From Sulfuricella sp. (GTDB taxonomy: Bacteria; Pseudomonadota; Gammaproteobacteria; Burkholderiales; Sulfuricellaceae): a DNA stretch of 26,910 bases. A program made the position numbers and the translations under genes. The DNA lies in assembly GCA_019911785.1 (NCBI GenBank), contig JAIOJM010000240.1, positions 1-26,910 on the forward strand, written 5' to 3'. Shown here one piece after another: positions 2,305-12,520 of this stretch. Below the pieces are notes generated by a model, which was not told the origin of the DNA, ran no database searches, and worked only from the letters and a program-made list of their open reading frames with translations. How positions within the stretch are numbered: the stretch's first letter is position 1; each line of letters begins with the position of its first letter.

Positions 2305-3330
2305 TCAGGCGGGCAGACTTGTCTTCATTGTCATCTTCACAGGCGTACCTCGCAGGCCGTGTCCATACGAACCGTAATAGGTCGATGTCACGTCGACCCG
2401 GCCATGGCCCAGCGCACGGGATACTGTGATGCAGGCCATACGGTGCGTCTCGCGGTCGATCTGCCCCAGGGCACCTCCTTTGATCGGTGCAGGGAATCCG
2501 GACTGGACTTCATAATCCTCGTGCGCCCATCCGTGCCGCGCGCCATGGGCCGTGACTCCCTTCAGGGCGCGGGTAATTCCCAGACGAGTCCGGATAAGGT
2601 AATAAAACCGGTTCTGTGCTTTGCGCCAGGAACAGTCCGGCCAGCGCAGTCGTCCCGTCGCGCCTTTTGCTGCAACCCGTCGCACCAGAGCAATCGCTTG
2701 CCGATGTTCCTCTGTTTTAATAGGCACGCGGCGTAAGCGGCCGCCCTTGGTGCCTTCGTAGATTTCCAGCATCGTGCCGTTCTCAACCACCGAGTTGGCC
2801 GGGTGGATTTCGATGCTTTCTTTCACCCGCAGCGCGAAATTGTGCTGAAGGGTCAGCATGGCACCCAGCCGTTCATCAAAGGACATGGCCAGTTCGATGA
2901 TCTGCGCCGGATCAACACCATTGGCTTTCCATGACCGATCCTTTGTCGCTACCGTCGGACGGGCAACGCGTTCATCAGGCAAGTAGTCATGGATGTGCTT
3001 GACTACGCCGCGTTTTCCCAACCAGTCACAGAAGGTTTTCAGCGTAGACAGCCGGGTATGTAAGAGGGAGGCGGACAAGCCTTGCGCATCCCAGTAGGAC
3101 ATCAAAGCCTTGACGTGCTTCTCGGACAGGGACGCTGGCTTCTGAATCCGGTATCCGATGGTCCACAGTTGAGCGAACGCCAGGTTAATTATCGACACCC
3201 GTTCTTTTCGGGTGCTGGCGGAACAAACTCCCTTTCCGTTGGCGCGCGTCGACAAAAAAGGACCGGTCGTCCGGTCGAGTTGGTTCCGCACCGCATTGGG
3301 CAGAACACGATCTGCGAGTGATCTAGTCAT
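2305..3330 (-). CDS. Tyrosine recombinase / integrase
   Basis: A 341-aa site-specific recombinase. An N-terminal SAM-like core-binding region (about 40-130) precedes a C-terminal catalytic domain with all expected residues: Arg168 (FALRVKE), Lys195 (GTKGG), His262-x-x-Arg265 (AHGARH), His309 (ALGHG) and the nucleophile Tyr318 (TSTYYG), nine residues after His309. It resembles the integrase group found on plasmids and ICEs with a long linker between HxxR and the final His. It would cut and rejoin DNA through a 3'-phosphotyrosine, for integration/excision or dimer resolution. Its start overlaps the stop of the 64-aa ORF. No attachment site or tRNA target is recognisable nearby, so which job it does is open. 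Confidence 0.9.
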   Translation of the reverse strand: MTRSLADRVLPNAVRNQLDRTTGPFLSTRANGKGVCSASTRKERVSIINLAFAQLWTIGYRIQKPASLSEKHVKALMSYWDAQGLSASLLHTRLSTLKTFCDWLGKRGVVKHIHDYLPDERVARPTVATKDRSWKANGVDPAQIIELAMSFDERLGAMLTLQHNFALRVKESIEIHPANSVVENGTMLEIYEGTKGGRLRRVPIKTEEHRQAIALVRRVAAKGATGRLRWPDCSWRKAQNRFYYLIRTRLGITRALKGVTAHGARHGWAHEDYEVQSGFPAPIKGGALGQIDRETHRMACITVSRALGHGRVDVTSTYYGSYGHGLRGTPVKMTMKTSLPA

Positions 3331-4126: not shown

Positions 4127-4680
4127 ATCAGACCAATAGCCTAGAAGGTCTATCCACTAGGGACAGAGATAGGGCGTATATGCCCAACAGTTGCTCTATG
4201 GAGCTGGCTACGCAAGTGGTAACCAATAGACGACAGCTTTCGCCATCGGGTTCCGCCGCGGCTCGCAGCGAATTTGGCAGTGGCTTTGCCTGGGAGACGC
4301 TTACTACACCGTCTAAACCAGACCTGGAGGACACCGTGATCCAGGCGCGTCCGGAAGGGACACTAACAACGGTTCCAATCAAATCATAATTCTGTGTGGC
4401 GTGTCAACTATGGATTCGGTAAAACTTTCAGTTATGCCCCTATTTTGTTTTAAAAAACCCCTGGGAAACTAATGCTGGCCGCAAAATCGATCCCCGTCTC
4501 GTTTTAACCTTTTTTGTTTGCTTGTTCCAAAAAGCCTCTCTCAACCCTTCAATTAGCATGCGAAATTGATGTCAAATATGTCGGCAAATGAATCGGCTCA
4601 ACGCGATTTTTACCATCTCGAAACATTGGCCTATTTCTGTCGATGCATTCGCCTGTTGCCCAAGGCGTTTCTGGCGCTGG
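4127..4680. other. Intergenic region without a supported gene
   Basis: I see no convincing coding frame. Overlapping frames on both strands at about 4128-4389 lack ribosome sites and family resemblance. A short hairpin GGGC/GCCC lies at 4172-4185 and an AT-rich one TCAATT/AATTGA at 4549-4569. From about 4384 the sequence becomes AT-rich with T and A tracts (4440-4530), unlike the flanks, consistent with a promoter, a bent segment or an origin-like region next to the repeat array. Confidence 0.3.
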
Positions 4681-4856
4681 CACCGTTTCGGCGTCAATTC
4701 GGTGTCGTTTTGACGCCTGTGGCAAACCCACATCTCGCCCAACACCTGCGGTGCCAATGCGGCGTCAATTCGGTGTCATTCCGACGTCTTCACACAAATT
4801 CAGTTCTCAACGATCACGCCCGACACCGAATCGGCACCGTTTTGGCGACAATTTAA
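4681..4856 (+). repeat. Candidate parC centromere/operator: three triads of 11-bp direct repeats
   Basis: Contiguous 11-bp units follow the pattern YRYCRWTTCGG. Triad 1 (4681-4713): CACCGTTTCGG, CGTCAATTCGG, TGTCGTTTTGA. Triad 2 (4752-4784): TGCCAATGCGG, CGTCAATTCGG, TGTCATTCCGA. Triad 3 (4824-4856): CACCGAATCGG, CACCGTTTTGG, CGACAATTTAA. Triads start 71 and 72 bp apart. In type II partition systems such as R1 parMRC, the centromere lies just upstream of parM and is built from 11-bp direct repeats bound by the ribbon-helix-helix ParR, which also autorepresses the operon. The spacing, period and position match that arrangement. The flanking regulator is the 105-aa protein at 6027. Confidence 0.75.
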
Positions 4857-4966
4857 CTACCGCTACCCAAAACTGCTGTTATTGCCACGTTTCGAGCGAC
4901 ATTTCCGCCTTCCTGTTCCATCGTCCAGCCGGGAAAATCGAAGCCTCTTACTCACGCGAGGTTTCT

Positions 4967-6034
4967 ATGCAAGATCAATACACAGTACGGGCCGTGGATG
5001 TTGGCTACGGCCATGTGAAATGGACGGATGGTCGTGACGGAGACGATATCCGCGCCGACAGCTTCCCCTCCCAGTCGCCAATCGCCCACGAAGGGGATTT
5101 CCGCTCCGAGATACTGCAGCGACGGGACACGGTGATCGTTCCCGTGAACGGACGGAGGTACGAAGTTGGTCGCCACGTTCGACTCGCATTGAGCGGGAAC
5201 CACGAAACGGAAGTGCTGGATGAAAACTTTCCTCTCTCTGATGCCTATGCCGCCCGGCTTTATGGCGCACTCAACTACATGCTGCCTACCCTGCCCTCCA
5301 GGAAGATCGACTTCCTGGTGCTGGGGCTCCCGCTGACCACCTTTCATCAGCACTCGACCAATCTTTCCAAGCGTTATGTCGGTCGGCATGTGATCAACGC
5401 ACGTGGCGATGCGGTTGAGATCGAGCGTTGCACTGTATATCCCCAACCGCTCGGCAGTTATGCCGCCTATCTCCAATCTCCACTGCCACATCACACATCG
5501 GCACCGATGGCGCTGGTTGTTGACCCCGGATACAACACCGTTGACTGGTTTGTCTGCGAAGGCATGGTAGCGAACGCCAATCAGTCCAAAGCGGTCGAGC
5601 GTGGAATGTCCGGGGTGCTTCGGGCGATTGCCAAGGCAATCATCAAAGAAACCAAGACCACGGCTAACGAAAGCGAGGTGGTGCGCCTTGTGGATCAAGC
5701 CATGACGCAAGGAACGCCGTTCCGCCTTCACGGCAAGCCGGTGGATATAACGTCATTCCTGCAGGCCGGTGACTCGATACTGGAGCAAGCGGCGCAGTCT
5801 GTCCGTAACAGCGTCGGTTCCGGCGCTTCAATCGACATCATTCTGGTCAGCGGGGGCGGTGCTGCACTGTACGCGCCTTGGCTGAAGCGCAAGTTCCCTG
5901 ACCATGAGGTCGTGGTGCTGCCAGAATCCGCGCTGGCTAATGTCCGCGGCTTTCACCTAATTGGTGACCGCCTGGCTGAATCTGTCGTCCGATCCACGCC
6001 GCGCAAAACCACGAATGAGGCGGCCCATGTCTAA
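4967..6034 (+). CDS. parM: ParM/StbA-type actin-like segregation ATPase
   Basis: A 355-aa actin-fold ATPase. Visible nucleotide-binding motifs: phosphate-1 AVDVGYGHVK (9-18), phosphate-2 DPGYNTVDW (186-194) and the adenosine motif VSGGGAALY (294-302). Proteins of this group polymerise into filaments that push sister plasmids apart when capped by ParR bound to parC. The start was taken at the ATG following GAGG at 4956-4959; the open frame extends further upstream through the parC repeats, but that part is not protein-like. Immediately preceded by the 11-bp repeat array and overlapping the downstream ParR-like gene by eight bases. A PRTRC-type actin homologue is an alternative label, but no other PRTRC genes are present. 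Confidence 0.88.
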   Translation: MQDQYTVRAVDVGYGHVKWTDGRDGDDIRADSFPSQSPIAHEGDFRSEILQRRDTVIVPVNGRRYEVGRHVRLALSGNHETEVLDENFPLSDAYAARLYGALNYMLPTLPSRKIDFLVLGLPLTTFHQHSTNLSKRYVGRHVINARGDAVEIERCTVYPQPLGSYAAYLQSPLPHHTSAPMALVVDPGYNTVDWFVCEGMVANANQSKAVERGMSGVLRAIAKAIIKETKTTANESEVVRLVDQAMTQGTPFRLHGKPVDITSFLQAGDSILEQAAQSVRNSVGSGASIDIILVSGGGAALYAPWLKRKFPDHEVVVLPESALANVRGFHLIGDRLAESVVRSTPRKTTNEAAHV

Positions 6035-6344
6035 ACCGATGCGAATCTCGGTTCGGTTGCACGAGATCGAGGACCCCGCTTTGTATCAAGAGTTGGAGGT
6101 TCTATCCCCTATTGCCCGGGGGCACAGGATTAGAGCGCTGCTACGGGCCGGCAAGAACGCTGACGGAGGCTACGGCGTTCCTCATGCCGTCGCTCCCACT
6201 ACTCAGGTTCGGTCGCCCGCCAAGCCGGCAAACACTGAACAGGGTGTGGCCGCTCCAGCACCGTCCCGTGGCGCCCCGATCGCCATGGACTTTTCAATGT
6301 TTCCGTCCTCCACGATGGAGGCCGGCAATGTCGCCAGCAACTAA
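6027..6344 (+). CDS. ParR/StbB-like ribbon-helix-helix DNA-binding protein
   Basis: A 105-aa protein whose first ~45 residues fit a ribbon-helix-helix fold: a basic beta strand (MRISVRL, 5-11), then helices (ALYQELEVL; RGHRIRALLRAG). The Pro/Ala-rich tail (60-95) and the C-terminal segment MDFSMFPSS may bind the ParM filament, as ParR tails do. GAGG lies six bases before the ATG, which overlaps the parM stop (ATGTCTAA). Expected roles are parC binding as the adaptor for ParM and autorepression of the operon; both follow from the family and the gene order. A longer frame starting at 5961 lies within parM and is unlikely. It overlaps the glycosyltransferase start by 17 bases. Confidence 0.75.
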   Translation: MSKPMRISVRLHEIEDPALYQELEVLSPIARGHRIRALLRAGKNADGGYGVPHAVAPTTQVRSPAKPANTEQGVAAPAPSRGAPIAMDFSMFPSSTMEAGNVASN

Positions 6345-7332
6345 AAAGATCTCCCTGGTTATCCCCGCTTTTAACGAAGCCGATGCCATCCCGGTATTCC
6401 TGGAGCACGTCATCCCGGTCGTGTCCGGCACAGGGTATGACTTCGAGATTGTCTTCGTCGATGACGGATCCAGTGATGCGACGGTAGAGACTCTGACGTG
6501 CTACTCCCGTCAGTACCCACAAATACGCATCGTGGAGCTTTCCCGAAATTTCGGCAAGGAAGCTGCGCTGACCGCTGGACTGATGTACTCCAGCGGCGAC
6601 GTTGTAATCCCTATGGACTGCGACCTGCAGGACCCCCCTGAGTTGATTCCCAGCATGCTGTCCAAGTGGCATGAGGGATTCAAGGTGGTCCATGCCGTTC
6701 GCACCTCGCGCGCCAGTGACTCCTGGGCCAAGCGTTCAACAGCAAACGCCTTTTATCAACTGATGGAGAGCATCACCGACGTCCACATCCCACCGAATTG
6801 CGGCGACTTCCGGCTAATGGACCGGGCCGTGGTAAATGCGATCCTGTCCTTCCCAGAGCGTAACCGCTTCATGAAAGGGATCATGGCAGCGGCCGGGTTT
6901 AAGTCCACTGCGGTCGAATATGAACGGCCAGAGCGATCCGCCGGCAAAACCAAGTTCAACTTCTGGAAACTCTGGAATTTTGCATTGGATGGCATTACTG
7001 GCTTCTCGACGATTCCCTTGCGGGTTTGGTCCTATCTCGGCGCACTGGTGGCTCTCTTTTCCTTTGTCTATGCAGGTTGGATTGTCCTGAAGACCGTCCT
7101 ATGGGGCGTCGTTACACCTGGCTTTGCCACCCTGATGAGCGTCGTTCTCTTCCTGGGTGGCGTCCAGCTGATAGGCATTGGCGTGCTTGGTGAATACCTT
7201 GGCCGGGTGGTGTACGAAACCAAGCGTCGGCCACTGTTTCTGGTGGGGGCCTTGCATGGCTTCGATCATCAAAGCCTGCCCTCCACCGTCGTTCCTATTG
7301 AAACCGCCGCCGCTGCACGAGGACTCCGCTAA
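6328..7332 (+). CDS. gtrB: GtrB-like polyprenyl-phosphate glycosyltransferase (GT2)
   Basis: A 334-aa family 2 glycosyltransferase: nucleotide-sugar motif SLVIPAFNE (9-17), VDDGSSD (44-50), the D-x-D-type segment MDCDLQDPPE (96-105), and two C-terminal transmembrane helices (about 232-256 and 264-288) with the LGEYLGRVVYETKRRP tail typical of bactoprenol glucosyltransferases and of DPM1/ArnC relatives. It should transfer a sugar from a nucleotide donor to undecaprenyl phosphate at the cytoplasmic face. The start (ATG after GGAG) overlaps the ParR-like gene by 17 bases; its stop overlaps the methyltransferase start (TAATG). It forms a gtr-type module with the GtrA-like gene two genes downstream. 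The sugar transferred cannot be read from sequence. Confidence 0.88.
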   Translation: MSPATKKISLVIPAFNEADAIPVFLEHVIPVVSGTGYDFEIVFVDDGSSDATVETLTCYSRQYPQIRIVELSRNFGKEAALTAGLMYSSGDVVIPMDCDLQDPPELIPSMLSKWHEGFKVVHAVRTSRASDSWAKRSTANAFYQLMESITDVHIPPNCGDFRLMDRAVVNAILSFPERNRFMKGIMAAAGFKSTAVEYERPERSAGKTKFNFWKLWNFALDGITGFSTIPLRVWSYLGALVALFSFVYAGWIVLKTVLWGVVTPGFATLMSVVLFLGGVQLIGIGVLGEYLGRVVYETKRRPLFLVGALHGFDHQSLPSTVVPIETAAAARGLR

Positions 7333-8087
7333 TGTCGACTACTGCCGAACTACGCCAAGAAAATATTGCCTTCCAGGCCAATTTATATGAATCGCAGAAT
7401 CCGGTTCGTCGCTGGCTTCACAATACCCGCAGGGAATGGGTAATGCATATGTTTGAAAAAATCGCGCCTCCGCAAGCGAACTTCCTAGAGATCGGGATCG
7501 GGTGTGGCATCTACACCGTGGCCATGGCCAGGCATGGCAATGTCACCGCTGTCGACATCAACCAGGATTTCGTTGACGCAGCCAGCTCCATTCCAAGGGT
7601 GTCGGCAACCAGAGCCGACATCATGACGCATAAGTTTTTCCCGACCCACGATATTGCCGTATGCTCCGAGGTGATCGAGCACATCCCGGATTCCCTGACC
7701 GCACTCCGCAACATCCGCACCGGCATCAAACCGAACGGCTACCTCATCCTGACTACGCCGAATTCCTATTCCACTATGGAGCTATTTGCCCGGTTATTGA
7801 GCATTAAGTGGGTAGTTCGCTTAGCCAGGGCCATTTATGGTGAATCGGTGGACGATCTCGGACATATCAACCGGATGACCCGAAGTCAGTTGCAAGCCCA
7901 GATTAAGGAGGCGGGATTTATCGTGATTAACCGGACTGATCGCGGGCTTTACATCCCGATCCTTGCCGAATTCGGCGGGGTAACAGGAGCACAGATTTCC
8001 CATTGGTTGGCACGCCACTTCAGGAGATCCCCTATCCTGTCGAATCTCTTGTGGACTCAGTGCTGGCTGCTGCAGCGCCCGCGATGA
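7332..8087 (+). CDS. SAM-dependent class I methyltransferase
   Basis: A 251-aa Rossmann-fold methyltransferase: motif I FLEIGIGCGIY (51-61), acidic residue after beta 2 (VDIN, 74-77), a motif II region DIAVCSEVIEHIPD (107-120) and a downstream beta strand KPNGYLILTTPNS. The pattern is of the UbiE/Methyltransf_11 or _23 type, which methylates small molecules or sugars rather than DNA. Context, between gtrB- and gtrA-like genes with overlapping codons on both sides, suggests methylation of a glycan or lipid-linked sugar, but the substrate is not shown. The C-terminal ~60 residues (LARHFRRSPILSNLLW) may associate with the membrane. Confidence 0.82.
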   Translation: MSTTAELRQENIAFQANLYESQNPVRRWLHNTRREWVMHMFEKIAPPQANFLEIGIGCGIYTVAMARHGNVTAVDINQDFVDAASSIPRVSATRADIMTHKFFPTHDIAVCSEVIEHIPDSLTALRNIRTGIKPNGYLILTTPNSYSTMELFARLLSIKWVVRLARAIYGESVDDLGHINRMTRSQLQAQIKEAGFIVINRTDRGLYIPILAEFGGVTGAQISHWLARHFRRSPILSNLLWTQCWLLQRPR

Positions 8088-8482
8088 ACCTGACCATGAT
8101 TGACCGGGTATGCGCCCGTTTCCTGCTGGTAGGGGTTGGCAATACCGCGCTCGGGTTGGGTGTCATCTTTATGGCCCGCCAATTCACCGGCGACGTCATG
8201 GCCAATCTGATCGGCTACCTCGTTGTGGTTCCGATATCTTTCCTGACCCACAGGGACTTATCCTTCCGGGACGGGGGGCATCGGTGGGCTGCTTTTGCCC
8301 GTTACCTTCCAACGATCCTTGCCGGCTACGCGGCCAACTATGCCGTCCTGACTACCGGATTGGCTTTGGCCTTCAACCCTTACTTCGTACAGACCGTGGC
8401 TATCGGCTGCCATGTGGTAGTCACCTATCTCCTCTCCCGGTTGTTCGTCTTTCATCATATTGAGCAAAAAATTCATGACTAA
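8084..8482 (+). CDS. gtrA: GtrA-like membrane protein (putative lipid-linked sugar flippase)
   Basis: A 132-aa protein with four predicted membrane helices (about 12-32, 38-56, 72-93, 103-123) and the family's conserved features: F-L-x-V-G near the N-terminus, a basic THRDLSFR segment after helix 2 and SRLFVF near the end. GtrA proteins are thought to flip undecaprenyl-phosphate-linked sugars to the periplasm for O-antigen or teichoic-acid decoration. The ATG at 8084 overlaps the methyltransferase stop as ATGA, which favours it over the upstream in-frame start at 8003. Its partner would be the GtrB-like enzyme two genes upstream, and a dedicated polytopic transferase would finish the pathway. 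Confidence 0.82.
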   Translation: MNLTMIDRVCARFLLVGVGNTALGLGVIFMARQFTGDVMANLIGYLVVVPISFLTHRDLSFRDGGHRWAAFARYLPTILAGYAANYAVLTTGLALAFNPYFVQTVAIGCHVVVTYLLSRLFVFHHIEQKIHD

Positions 8483-8666
8483 TCGCCAACTCCCCTCCAT
8501 CGAAGAAGTCATGGCCGACCCTGCCTGTTCCTACTGGCTAAAAACGACGCTCCAAGGAGCATTGAATCGTGATCCGGTTGATGCGCTGGCTGACGCTATG
8601 CTTTTAACCAACCTGCTCCAGTCTCGTCTGGACGATCTGTTGCCAGCAACAGCCATCAAGGGGTAA
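8475..8666 (+). CDS. Small hypothetical protein in the gtr operon (63 aa)
   Basis: A 63-aa soluble, helical protein (LPSIEEVMADPACSYWL; then DPVDALADAMLLTNLLQSRL). The ATG at 8475 overlaps the gtrA stop by eight bases (ATGACTAA); a TTG five codons earlier is possible. The gap to the following membrane-protein gene is four bases. No family recognised. The conserved-looking overlap at both ends argues that it is translated with the operon. It might be a small partner of the neighbouring membrane enzymes or of the segregation proteins; nothing in the sequence decides this. Confidence 0.55.
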   Translation: MTNRQLPSIEEVMADPACSYWLKTTLQGALNRDPVDALADAMLLTNLLQSRLDDLLPATAIKG

Positions 8667-8670
8667 TGAA

Positions 8671-10194
8671 GTGGGCTACGCCATCTCCATTCCATTCGTG
8701 GTCCTGCTTGCGATTTTCGCTTACCGCGCACCATCTCCGTCCGCTTCCGGGATCATTGATCCCGACTATTACTGGCACCTGAGTTACGGTGACTGGATCA
8801 TCCAGAACGGACGCCTGCCAACCGAGGATTTCTGGTCATGGACTTTCGATGGCCACGCTTACCGCCTGACTCAGTGGCTGGGCGAGGTGGCAATGGCTTT
8901 CGCCAACCAGATGGGCGGAACGCTCGGCACCTCCACACTTTCAGCCCTCTTGTTGACGCTCACGCTGGCGGCATCCTACAAGGCGGCCCGGTGTTTTCTC
9001 GATAACAGGCTGGCAGCCCTAGCGGTGTCCATCGGCTGTAACGCGATCCTCGTTTCCCTTGCCTGCCGTCCGCACCAATTTACTCATCTGGGCCTGGCTA
9101 TCCTGACCTGGATGGTGGCCAGCTTTCAGACCACCGGCAAACACAGGCCCCTGTATTTCGTGCCCGTGCTTATGGCAATATGGGTCAACTTGCACGGGGG
9201 CTATGCGGTGGGCCTAGCCTACCTCTGGATGATGACCGGCCTGGTCGTTGTGGATGCCTTCGTCAGCAAGCGCCCCGACGAGATCCGTACCGTGGCCATT
9301 CCTCTGGCAATAGCCGCGGCGATCGGCACGCTCAGTACCCTCCTCAACCCTTATGGCTGGGAGGCATGGGTGTACGCCTTCGAGATCGCCAGTCTCAAGT
9401 CTTCTGCCGCCGGCATCGTGGATGAATGGGCCGCCACCAGCATCAAGACGGAAGTTGGGCTCAACTTCTTCCTGATTACCTCGGCCATGTTCGTAGCCAT
9501 GGCAGCCGCCCGGCAGCGCCCGAGAATTGCTCAACTCCTGGCCGCCGTCGCCCTCTGTGCCATTGGCTGGTCTGCCGTGCGAATCTCCCTGATGTCCACA
9601 ATCCTCATTGTCCCGATCCTGGCCAGCGCCCTGCGGTCTACTTCGTTCTACGACCTGGCCTTCAATGGGGATGGCAGACGCTATGACCGACTCATTCCTC
9701 TCCCTGTCGCGGTCGGTGTACTGGCAGCCCTCGCCACCTTGACCGTGTGGCTTGGGCAGATTGACCAGACGGCTGCGCGCCATGTAACGGCGAACATGCC
9801 GGAGCAAGAAGTGCGGTTCATGCAGGCGCACCATATCGAGGGGCGCATCCTCAATGCCCCCGAGGCAGGCGGTTACCTCATCCGTAAACTGGGCCAGAAG
9901 GTATCCCTTGATACCAGGCTGGACCTCTACGGTGACCGCGCCCTGTTCGAGTACCTGTTTGCCCGGCGCGGCGAAGTTGGATGGCGCGAATACATCGAGC
10001 GGATGAACCCTGATGTCGTGCTGATAAACAACCAGGCCGCCCTGCGCCAGTTGCTTTCTGGCGAAGGCAAATATCGTCTGGTATTCGAAGGTGCTGCTTA
10101 CTCGATCCTGCTCAAGGCCTCCATGCGCCTGGATATACCCACCGTGTTCACGGATTTGCACAACAATCCCTTTCTTTCCCAATTGAAGTCCTGA
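8671..10194 (+). CDS. Polytopic membrane protein, GT-C-like, copy 1
   Basis: A 507-aa integral membrane protein with about ten hydrophobic helices and a hydrophilic C-terminal domain from about residue 365. A first periplasmic loop carries acidic and aromatic residues (DPDYYWHLSYGDWI), as in GT-C polyprenyl-sugar-dependent glycosyltransferases whose catalytic Asp sits there. Other markers: RLTQWLGE, a WVNLHGGYAVG segment and LLNPYGW. The start is GTG after AAGGGG. It is paralogous along its whole length to the next gene. In gtr clusters the third component is a polytopic transferase acting on the periplasmic face, which is the most economical role here. Family membership is inferred from topology and loop motif. 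Confidence 0.72.
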   Translation: MGYAISIPFVVLLAIFAYRAPSPSASGIIDPDYYWHLSYGDWIIQNGRLPTEDFWSWTFDGHAYRLTQWLGEVAMAFANQMGGTLGTSTLSALLLTLTLAASYKAARCFLDNRLAALAVSIGCNAILVSLACRPHQFTHLGLAILTWMVASFQTTGKHRPLYFVPVLMAIWVNLHGGYAVGLAYLWMMTGLVVVDAFVSKRPDEIRTVAIPLAIAAAIGTLSTLLNPYGWEAWVYAFEIASLKSSAAGIVDEWAATSIKTEVGLNFFLITSAMFVAMAAARQRPRIAQLLAAVALCAIGWSAVRISLMSTILIVPILASALRSTSFYDLAFNGDGRRYDRLIPLPVAVGVLAALATLTVWLGQIDQTAARHVTANMPEQEVRFMQAHHIEGRILNAPEAGGYLIRKLGQKVSLDTRLDLYGDRALFEYLFARRGEVGWREYIERMNPDVVLINNQAALRQLLSGEGKYRLVFEGAAYSILLKASMRLDIPTVFTDLHNNPFLSQLKS

Positions 10195-10196
10195 CC

Positions 10197-11711
10197 ATGC
10201 GCCTTTTATTTCCTGCCACTCTGCTCACTTTTCTTGCCGCTCTCTGGGTAAAGGCCATCTATCCAGCGTCATCCGGTATCGCCGATACCGATTTCTACTG
10301 GCACATCACATATGGGCAGTGGATGATTGAACATAGGATGTTGCCGCCCGGCGACTCCTTCTCATGGACATTCCAGAACGCACCCTATCAACTGACCCAA
10401 TGGCTTGGCGAACTATTGATGGGCGTGGCATACAATTCTGGCGGCCTGACCGGCACCAAGATGATGTCTGTCCTGCTTGCAGCCATCACCATTGGCTTTG
10501 CATGGCGTGGCGCTGCCCGCTATGTTCACACATCGCTGGCACTCGGGCTGGCCTTCGTGGCCAACCTGGTGCAATTGGTCACCCCCATGCGCCCGCAACT
10601 CTTCTCTTTTGCCCTGCTGGCCGTTTTTACCTACCTGATTGTCAGTTGGCTGGAAACAGGCCGCCGCCGTTATCTTCTGGCTTTCCCGCCGCTCATGGCG
10701 CTTTGGGTCAATCTTCACGGGGGGTTTGTGGTCGGGCTGGCGCTCATCGGACTACTGGCTGTTGGCTTGACCGGCGAGGCAATCCTTAAAAACTGCGTGC
10801 GCTCGGAGCTACATCGACTGGCCCTGGCCTGGCTCACGGTAGTTGCGTCGACCGCGGCCACATTGTTGAACCCTTACGGCATCAAGGCGTTGACCACCGT
10901 GCTGATGATTGGCGGACTTCGCAGTTCCTCGGTCATTTCCGAATGGATGCCGGTGAACCTCACCACCGAACTCGGATGGTTCTATCTGCTCAACCTTGTG
11001 CCGTTCGTGGCCATCATGGCTGTTTCCGGTATTCGCCCGAGGCTCACGCATGGACTGATCGCCGGCTTCTTCCTGGTGTTCGGGATTCTGGCCAACCGTC
11101 AGGTCGCCATGTGCGCGGCCGTCATGGCACCACTGCTCGCCGCCCTCCTCTCCCGTACACCAAACTACGAAAAGATGGCCTCCTCGCTATCAAATCCGAG
11201 TCGCCCATTGGCTCACGGACTCATCGCTGCTGCCCTGATAGCATCCTTCCCGGCCATCGCTGCCAAAGGTGACGGGACGTGGGCGGCAACCATGAACTTG
11301 CAGTATCCCGTCAAAGCAACCGACTTCCTCATCGAGCATGGACTGGACAAGCGCGTGCTGTCCGACACCCTTGAAGCGAGCTATCTCATTCATCGCCGTG
11401 TGCCCGTATTCATCGACGGACGAATGGATCTGTACCGGGATTCTTTTTTCTTCACCTGGTATCTGGCTTCGCGCGGCGCGCCAGGCTGGGAAAATATTCT
11501 TGAGCAGCACCAGCCTGAAAGCCTGCTACTCCGACAAGACATGGCACTGCGCCAGCTTGCCCTAGCATCCGGTCGATGGAAACAGGTCTATGAGGATGCA
11601 AGGTATTCGATCCTCGTGCCCATGAGTACCCCAGGGCTTCCTGCCATCCCGCCATCTTCTGTGAGATATCTGGATGCAAACGGTGGCATGGTGCGTCTAT
11701 ACATGCCCTAA
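10197..11711 (+). CDS. Polytopic membrane protein, GT-C-like, copy 2 (tandem paralogue)
   Basis: A 504-aa paralogue of the preceding gene, two bases downstream. The same landmarks occur in order: DTDFYWHITYGQWM in the first loop, QLTQWLGEL, WVNLHGGFVVG, LLNPYGI, and a C-terminal soluble domain with DGRMDLYRDSFFF and GWENILEQ matching DTRLDLYGDRALF and GWREYIER of copy 1. Identity by eye is moderate, so the duplication is old or the two came together. They may add different sugars or act as a heterodimer. The C-terminal domain conserves D-x-R-x-D-L-Y in both, which may be a binding or catalytic element. Confidence 0.72.
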   Translation: MRLLFPATLLTFLAALWVKAIYPASSGIADTDFYWHITYGQWMIEHRMLPPGDSFSWTFQNAPYQLTQWLGELLMGVAYNSGGLTGTKMMSVLLAAITIGFAWRGAARYVHTSLALGLAFVANLVQLVTPMRPQLFSFALLAVFTYLIVSWLETGRRRYLLAFPPLMALWVNLHGGFVVGLALIGLLAVGLTGEAILKNCVRSELHRLALAWLTVVASTAATLLNPYGIKALTTVLMIGGLRSSSVISEWMPVNLTTELGWFYLLNLVPFVAIMAVSGIRPRLTHGLIAGFFLVFGILANRQVAMCAAVMAPLLAALLSRTPNYEKMASSLSNPSRPLAHGLIAAALIASFPAIAAKGDGTWAATMNLQYPVKATDFLIEHGLDKRVLSDTLEASYLIHRRVPVFIDGRMDLYRDSFFFTWYLASRGAPGWENILEQHQPESLLLRQDMALRQLALASGRWKQVYEDARYSILVPMSTPGLPAIPPSSVRYLDANGGMVRLYMP

Positions 11712-11729
11712 CCCAACCAAGGAAAGAAC

Positions 11730-12044
11730 ATGACGACACGGATTCGGACACCGAAGGTGCGGCCTCCTCAAGCCAGTCCAAAAGAGGTAGAGGCATGGAA
11801 AGCATTCACTGAAATGGCGGAGGCGATGCACGCTGAGAATGGGGTGATGCCGACTATGGTTCGCCAGGAACTGGACCGCCTCTGTCGGCGCGGCAACCCT
11901 CTAGCCATTCGCTTTCTGGACTCGCTGTCGTTGGCGGAATCCCATCTGCGCAGGCCTGACGAACAAGGCCAGGAACGGCCAGGAATTCGCCGAATCTCGC
12001 GTCTCCGCTGGATTCATGCGCCAACGGCACGCAAAGCGCGATAG
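11730..12044 (+). CDS. Small basic hypothetical protein (104 aa)
   Basis: A 104-aa basic protein with AAGGAAAG upstream of its ATG, 18 bases after the second membrane-protein gene. A Pro/Arg-rich N-terminus (RTPKVRPPQASPKEVEAWK) is followed by a helical segment (FTEMAEAMHAENGVMPTMVRQELDRL) and an Arg-rich tail. No known domain is recognised. The charge and helices could suit nucleic-acid binding, but there is no definite motif. It looks like the last gene of the overlapping operon that begins at parM. Confidence 0.55.
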   Translation: MTTRIRTPKVRPPQASPKEVEAWKAFTEMAEAMHAENGVMPTMVRQELDRLCRRGNPLAIRFLDSLSLAESHLRRPDEQGQERPGIRRISRLRWIHAPTARKAR

Positions 12045-12127
12045 CAATCTGTGCCGCTGCATGGCGGCGCAACCAAGTCAGAAACGGTAATGATGGTGTG
12101 CTATCCTGAAAACACTAGGAGCGCACC

Positions 12128-12430
12128 ATGAACACATTAATCAATTTTCTGAAGCAAGCATTTTCCACCTTGGTACTCAAGCCATTTGACTGGCTTCTGT
12201 TTGGTGGCGCTGGCGTATTGACGCGCTCGAGGGAGGAATGGCGAGAGGATTTTGAATCCATGCGAGCTGTCCGTGGTTCGACGGTATCAGTCGAGGCGGA
12301 TTTCCCCGAGATCGAGCATACCCCAATGGTTTGTGTGAATGGTTGGGGTGAGCCTCAGTGGATGCTGAATGGTCCTGAGCTACCGCAAGAGGTTACTACA
12401 GACGACTTTCATTCCCGAGAAGGGCGATAA
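12128..12430 (+). CDS. Hypothetical protein with short hydrophobic N-terminus (100 aa)
   Basis: A 100-aa protein with AGGAG six bases ahead of its ATG. The N-terminal ~35 residues are amphipathic or hydrophobic (FLKQAFSTLVLKPFDWLLFGGAGVL), followed by an acidic, Trp-containing soluble part. Possibly membrane-associated. It is set apart from the preceding operon by about 80 bases and ends in a strong hairpin, so it may have its own promoter. No family recognised. It lies just outside the left inverted repeat of the cassette insertion. Confidence 0.5.
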   Translation: MNTLINFLKQAFSTLVLKPFDWLLFGGAGVLTRSREEWREDFESMRAVRGSTVSVEADFPEIEHTPMVCVNGWGEPQWMLNGPELPQEVTTDDFHSREGR

Positions 12431-12453
12431 GCCGAATGCTCAATCGCCCTTCT
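12418..12453 (+). terminator. Intrinsic terminator-like hairpin after the 100-aa gene
   Basis: An 11-bp perfect stem, AGAAGGGCGAT/ATCGCCCTTCT, with a 14-base loop containing the stop codon's end, followed by TGCCGCCTTTT. The T-tract is short, so termination may be moderate. It marks the right boundary of the rightward operon. Confidence 0.6.
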
Positions 12454-12520
12454 TGCCGCCTTTTGGTCAGATAAACCGGACGTTCTGGATTTTTTGGGAT
12501 TCCGGATTTTACTGTGGGTG

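Follow-up and report, generated by a model that had tools for sequence, protein, structure and literature searches.

Why should a plasmid-partition locus run on, gene overlapping gene, into a probable pathway for the glycosylation of surface molecules? The question is raised by a stretch of 26,910 nucleotides from Sulfuricella sp. (contig JAIOJM010000240.1 of assembly GCA_019911785.1, forward strand), referred to here as the window. The window is part of an F-type conjugative element with matches to TraG_N, TraH, TraF, TraN and TrbC_Ftype on the minus strand. Between these tra genes and an integrase (2305–3330) sits a plus-strand string of genes (4967–11711) in the order parM, parR-like, gtrB, methyltransferase, gtrA, a small open reading frame (ORF) and two GT-C glycosyltransferase genes, GT-C1 and GT-C2. 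The junctions from parM to GT-C2 measure −8, −17, −1 (TAATG), −4 (ATGA), −8, +4 and +2, just as the initial annotation of this DNA had described a one-strand string with overlaps or short gaps. We consider it fairly probable that a lipid-linked glycosylation pathway has here been added to the operon of a type II (parMRC-like) partition locus and stands under the control of ParR.

The first gene, parM (4967–6034), encodes an actin-like segregation ATPase (PF17989, 3e-22) that also belongs to the PRTRC protein D family (TIGR03739 PRTRC_D, 259.3 bits vs a cut-off of 214.8). Its best solved relative in a profile search is 3js6 (1.5e-19), a ParM that we take to be that of pSK41. Directly behind it lies the gene of a putative ParR-like adaptor (6027–6344), whose place and size fit ParR and whose C-terminal end is partly conserved in the alignment. 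The adaptor matched no Pfam or NCBIfam family, and a search with it found two proteins, 95% and 70% identical. A single-sequence model (mean predicted local distance difference test score, pLDDT, 58.4) predicts two N-terminal helices, at residues 17–25 and 28–40, and a disordered tail.

Upstream of parM, eleven 11-bp iterons form three clusters (4+4+3) between 4679 and 4854, with four repeats at 4679–4722, four at 4750–4793 and three at 4822–4854, all on the plus strand. In the 450 bp before parM, a lag of 11 gives the strongest self-match among lags 4–30 (24/33 positions). The same lag is strongest before parM in the two closest plasmid relatives, pSTJ1 and pAZI09 (24/33 and 23/33), and 0 of 500 dinucleotide-preserving shuffles reached the lag-11 score at any lag from 4 to 30 in each of the three plasmids. 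The parC-like repeats of the initial annotation thus form an array beyond chance. A matrix of the 11 iterons scored full triplets at 30–37 in the array and ≤10.6 elsewhere in the window on the plus strand, and up to 24.8 in the array and ≤9.2 in the rest of the window on the minus strand. Since the matrix was built from the same 11 repeats, it tests only for further sites, and no second array of ParR-type iterons turned up anywhere in the window.

Judged from its sequence, the locus has a parMRC-like anatomy consisting of ParM, a parR-like partner and upstream iterons. It shares with the type II loci of R1 and pSK41 the actin-like ParM, the small protein behind it and the iterons upstream. The repeats of R1 are likewise 11 bp long, and R1 ParR requires two of them, according to a passage of PMC9426499. 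Whereas the iterons of R1 are split into two, as part of PMC5016525 describes, the window has three clusters, and its operon, unlike those of R1 and pSK41, runs on into six more genes. The 11-bp property is not uniform across the ParM family: among 14 additional ParM-family loci, lag 11 was top or joint-top in seven and exceeded the 95% simple-shuffle level in three.

What would these six genes do? GtrB (6328–7332) is a polyprenyl-phosphate glycosyltransferase of family GT2 (PF00535, 6.6e-34; PDB 5ekp, sll0501, E 4.9e-111). It is followed by a class I S-adenosylmethionine methyltransferase (7332–8087; PF13489, 5.5e-18) and by GtrA (8084–8482), a GtrA/DPMS membrane protein and probable flippase (PF04138, 1.4e-18; 67.6 bits vs a cut-off of 26.1). 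The initial annotation is supported in its parMRC-like anatomy, its gtr-type GtrB and GtrA and its coupled gene string on one strand. GT-C1 (8671–10194, GTG start) and GT-C2 (10197–11711) are polytopic paralogues with 34% identity. An AlphaFold2 model of GT-C1 (mean pLDDT 91.3) has a fold that resembles STT3, DPY19 and ArnT. Compared with GT-C transferases in general (STT3/PglB, DPY19, PMT, ArnT), the fold matches over about 310–440 residues and, for STT3, DPY19 and ArnT, reaches into the C-terminal part. However, identity to GT-C1 amounts to 8–15%, and here two tandem copies occur with GtrB and GtrA.

The gtr serotype-conversion clusters of phages SfI, SfII and SfV offer a second comparison. 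They share with the window a GtrB that is 51–52% identical, a protein of the GtrA family and a polytopic further component, for which the GT-C proteins with their predicted fold are the candidates here. In contrast, the window genes reside on plasmids behind a partition locus and have two GT-C genes besides a methyltransferase and a small ORF. GT-C1 itself had no sequence match in 50,697 phage records.

The sugar would be passed to lipopolysaccharide (LPS) or to protein, and both acceptors are possible. The GT-C1 model resembles protein glycosyltransferases no less closely than it does ArnT, and it is conceivable, if rather less than an even prospect, that the pathway glycosylates a protein (the plasmid's conjugative pilus, its mating-pair proteins or a host pilin) and not LPS. 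However, the Z differences are modest and the fold does not show the acceptor, and GtrB matches genes of O-antigen converting phages. The WWDYG motif is the motif of oligosaccharyltransferases (STT3/PglB), and it is missing from the 36-sequence consensus. Elsewhere, a Sphingobium plasmid carries a gtrB-like gene (50% identity) together with a methyltransferase gene (L102:4776-6493); this pair is flanked by hypothetical proteins of ~500 amino acids without a match to the GT-C1 profile.

Is the arrangement peculiar to this element? A DNA search matched the window in 32 of 72,556 plasmid records, led by pSTJ1 (65% of the query covered) and pAZI09 (51%), with the next record at 9%; pAZI09 is named in a table of PMC9537497. 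Both plasmids carry an integrase and then all eight genes, with order and strand as in the window. A traG/H/F block follows on the other strand, separated from GT-C2 by one further gene in pSTJ1 and by four in pAZI09. The parM/parR and parR/gtrB pairs overlap in all three plasmids, and the junctions gtrB/methyltransferase (−1), methyltransferase/gtrA (−4) and small ORF/GT-C1 (+4) are identical in all three. The annotated start of the pAZI09 GT-C2 is probably late, and its junction was taken from 15727.

Identities to the window, for pSTJ1 and pAZI09 respectively, are 193/351 and 191/351 for ParM (54–55%), 31/98 and 29/103 for ParR, 236/326 and 244/329 for GtrB, 153/249 and 156/249 for the methyltransferase, 83/126 and 92/125 for GtrA, 24/47 and 32/56 for the small ORF, 308/504 and 314/502 for GT-C1 (61–63%) and 354/503 and 288/475 for GT-C2. 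Both plasmid records whose GT-C1 is >60% identical have it in the same operon behind parMR, so that parMR and gtr genes do adjoin elsewhere, contrary to the outcome that the initial annotation had named as fatal to its proposal. Four more plasmid records carry GT-C relatives at 23–28% identity.

The comparison also delimits the unit, which had been drawn from 4681 to 12044. Its part from parM to GT-C2 is conserved, up to 11711, and the conserved unit ends there because the ORF at 11730–12044 (104 amino acids) has no homology to the next gene in pSTJ1 or pAZI09; we rejected it as a module member. Further on lies a 100-amino-acid ORF (12128–12430) with a relative in pSTJ1, the gene that follows GT-C2 there (24/40 residues). 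Just before this ORF, the segment 12030–12130 is predicted to fold strongly as RNA (z −3.2, with 1 of 200 shuffles doing as well), and one stem takes in the start region of the ORF. Within the module, G+C is 53–60% from parM to GT-C2 and gives no sign of recent foreign insertion.

The small ORF (8475–8666, 63 amino acids), conserved in both relatives, is itself related to proteins on many plasmids. Relatives occur in 125 of the 72,556 plasmid records (E≤0.01), and 53 cover at least 80% of it. Of four contexts viewed, two had the relative one gene past kleA, which is annotated as a gene for stable inheritance, and two had it among mostly hypothetical genes. That a small ORF of many plasmids has its place between gtrA and the GT-C genes speaks for glycan genes that are part of the plasmid backbone and were not appended to it.

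The last gene of the string behaves differently from the others. Between pSTJ1 and pAZI09, ParM is identical at 319/354 residues, ParR at 78/113, GtrB at 296/326, the methyltransferase at 213/250, GtrA at 96/125, the small ORF at 33/47 and GT-C1 at 430/502, whereas GT-C2 reaches only 301/475 (63%, vs 69–91% for the other module proteins). The GT-C2 of pSTJ1 is closer to that of the window (70%) than to that of pAZI09, and the pAZI09 gene (L002:15727-17238) has 49% G+C vs 57–61% for the rest of its module. These figures, from two plasmids, suggest that the last transferase of pAZI09 was replaced by exchange. Phage gtr clusters have a variable specificity gene, which such an exchange would resemble, and the analogy hints at selection for a different surface product. 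pAZI09 also carries a third GT-C-like gene outside the module (L103:7294-8760, pAZI09 183293-184759), two genes before a group of N-6 DNA methylase, nuclease and helicase.

To what extent are the partition and glycan genes inherited together? We used 120 of 168 metagenomic relatives of GT-C1 and 120 of 201 of ParM and compared the sizes of their longest contigs above 5 kb; smaller ones were dropped, including one 2269-bp coincidence too short for both genes. Of 83 and 61 distinct sizes in the two sets, 14 were identical, against a mean expectation of 0.17 and a maximum of 3 over 400 shifts of 1–200 bases either way. Two contigs common to ParM and GT-C1 relatives measure 8,428 and 9,454 bases, so small that the two genes must be close; the longer ones speak for co-location only. 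A natural GtrA–GT-C1 fusion (P0059) lies on a contig of the same size as one of a ParM relative.

Moreover, the two proteins diverge in parallel. Mantel correlations of ParM with GT-C1 distances gave r 0.65 (n=17), 0.83 (n=14, after removal of the three pairs in which GT-C1 differs most from that of the window) and 0.73 (n=13, also without pAZI09), with 0 of 5000 permutations reaching each. In a ParM tree of 136 rows (300–440 amino acids kept, P0140 left out), the 17 gtr-linked rows require 4 changes vs 10.6 when shuffled (0/500 as low), the tree being a quick one with long branches and 105 rows of unknown module state. The linked ParMs are spread through a clade of 125 rows with a Shimodaira–Hasegawa-like approximate likelihood ratio test (SH-aLRT) support of 100, which also holds three loci without the module. 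With two further plasmids, 14 same-size contigs and parallel divergence, we rejected a one-off juxtaposition; by these sequence comparisons the parM–glycan string is an old, co-inherited unit, but not a universal one.

This group of plasmids is known mostly from metagenomes and was rarely met in the complete genomes searched. GT-C1 was found at E≤1e-60 in 5 of 399 sampled genomes, with the tandem pair only in a Sulfuricystis genome, and at E≤1e-100 in 1 of 369, again the Sulfuricystis genome (G022). Searching genome contigs with the GT-C1 alignment gave 45 loci, 43 of them at 21–29% identity and the others at 44% and 33%. A GtrB-query match was present in 15 of these 45 loci and a parM match in none. 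A single-ParM query of genome contigs returned 18 pattern matches and no relative, and viral contigs held no GT-C relative and one ParM relative at 24%.

For ParM, a threshold of E≤1e-60 gave matches in 8 of 399 and in 18 of 297 sampled genomes (25 different genomes in all), and one of E≤1e-90 gave a match in 1 of 395 genomes of a Nitrospirota sample. Apart from the Sulfuricystis genome, 12 of the 24 positive genomes were examined, with 0.8 to 8 kb of downstream DNA each. Their ParMs are 34–54% identical to the window's, and in 10 of the 12 loci parM has an integrase match next to it. GT-C1 had no match at E≤1e-20 in seven of these genomes, which have parM but not the module. A thirteenth locus, from the Nitrospirota sample (L121), has an integrase, parM, a parR-like gene overlapping parM by 8 bp and then a gtrB-like stretch (L121:3816-3965) that matches residues 8–58 (49%) and breaks off into other DNA. 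This stretch looks like a relic of the module, although its 4.3-kb contig may be mis-binned.

That parMR loci without the cassette exist is what one would expect if the gtr genes were positional cargo, sitting in a tolerated slot behind parR and expressed mainly from their own promoter, with their co-inheritance reflecting the plasmid backbone. Integrase, parMR and the traG/H/F block are conserved in both relatives, so that parallel divergence would be expected of whatever gene lies between them, and the GT-C2 of the relatives was apparently exchanged independently of the rest. However, parR and gtrB overlap in all three plasmids, and a separate gtrB promoter would therefore need to sit inside parR or parM. 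The scan recognised no plus-strand promoter inside the operon of the window or pAZI09; the nearest plus-strand promoter-like site is at 10782 in pSTJ1, the only one there, inside parM and about 1.0 kb before gtrB. We regard positional cargo as somewhat unlikely.

A promoter and terminator between parR and gtrB, which would have undermined the initial annotation, did not emerge as a conserved feature of the three plasmids in a scan that is crude and fails to detect the par promoter as well. At the parR ends, RNA folding was not clearly better than in shuffles (z −0.89, 0.47 and −1.43). The signal scans are weak evidence in favour of a single transcript, weak because the par promoter is missed too. 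Over 4300–12500, 14 terminator-like sites were counted on both strands vs 6.4 (standard deviation 2.3) in shuffles; pSTJ1 and pAZI09 have three each, fewer than their own shuffles.

Several observations weigh against an operon extended under ParR control. The search for other ParMR operons followed by gtr genes, which the initial annotation had proposed, succeeded in pSTJ1 and pAZI09 but not in the 12 genome loci, where none has gtr genes behind parR, bar single weak matches (E~0.01) in two; nor do the Shewanella and Methylophaga plasmids. Three of the 12 lie inside the gtr-bearing ParM clade, and one (L087), whose ParM is 54% identical to the window's, is no more distant than pSTJ1 and yet lacks the module, which implies that the module is dispensable, with loss or lack inside the clade. 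The matching of contig sizes demonstrates co-location, not gene order. No promoter was recognised at the window parC in a sigma-70 scan, and a weak terminator-like stem (6266–6288) lies inside the window parR; no counterpart was found in pSTJ1 or pAZI09. The ParR-like protein is weakly conserved (31/98 residues vs pSTJ1), and its fold is a low-confidence prediction. Finally, ParA-type ATPases occur on both relatives; partition may therefore not depend on ParMR alone, and the occupancy of ParR is not necessarily what chiefly reports the state of the plasmid.

ParMR may accordingly be a second partition system or part of a PRTRC system. Could it then serve PRTRC, or another role than segregation, with the operon as a PRTRC accessory locus? 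The window ParM falls in TIGR03739 by score, and the only PRTRC_D match on each of pSTJ1 and pAZI09 is the module parM. The pSTJ1 annotation lists PRTRC proteins E, C, B, A and ThiF away from the rep region, and PRTRC_ThiF is above cut-off on both relatives. The ParA-type ATPases would suit such a role as well: pSTJ1 has an annotated ParB and AAA ATPase near the rep gene, and AAA_31 matches pSTJ1 at two sites and pAZI09 in three stretches that belong to two reading frames, although AAA_31 is not partition-specific and matches 14 of 14 control genomes too. The locus differs from the PRTRC plasmid system in that protein D of pSTJ1 and the remaining PRTRC genes are about 55 kb apart and that protein D here heads a glycan operon. 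The 11-bp iterons upstream and the ParR-like partner make up a parMRC-like set, and we judge a PRTRC role quite improbable.

How would a partition locus extended under ParR control work? Parts of PMC5016525 and PMC4911067 describe repression of the par promoter by ParR on parC. By extension, transcription would start in or just behind the parC iterons and read through all eight genes. GtrB would charge undecaprenyl phosphate with a sugar, the methyltransferase would modify the sugar or its product, and GtrA would flip the lipid carrier. The sugar would then be handed by the two GT-C enzymes to acceptors in the periplasm, one or two in number (LPS/O-antigen, or else a protein of the envelope or the pilus). 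With ParR on parC governing the output of the whole string, the glycan enzymes would stay low in an established carrier and be highest when ParR is scarce, and, as the initial annotation proposed, their expression might follow plasmid copy state. We infer the single transcript, the repression, each biochemical step, the sugar, the acceptor and any benefit, such as the exclusion of phages or plasmids.

A bolder version, which we consider unlikely, makes the centromere complex a switch for host surface glycosylation. In a naive cell without ParR, parC of the entering plasmid would be open, and a burst of GtrB, GtrA and GT-C enzymes would remodel the envelope, perhaps to keep out phages or rival plasmids, until ParR shuts down its own promoter. 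The last transferase gene would be exchanged like the specificity gene of phage gtr clusters, and partition and exclusion would amount to a single regulated trait that a large plasmid clade has retained as a unit.

A literature search, with most subscription journals outside its coverage, found no report of a parMR–glycosylation gene arrangement. Partition operons are usually treated as self-contained. The deep, co-inherited fusion described here suggests that in some plasmids the protein that holds and segregates the plasmid may also regulate the host surface. The establishment of such environmental plasmids would then be linked, in a way open to direct test, to surface traits, for example phage sensitivity and mating.

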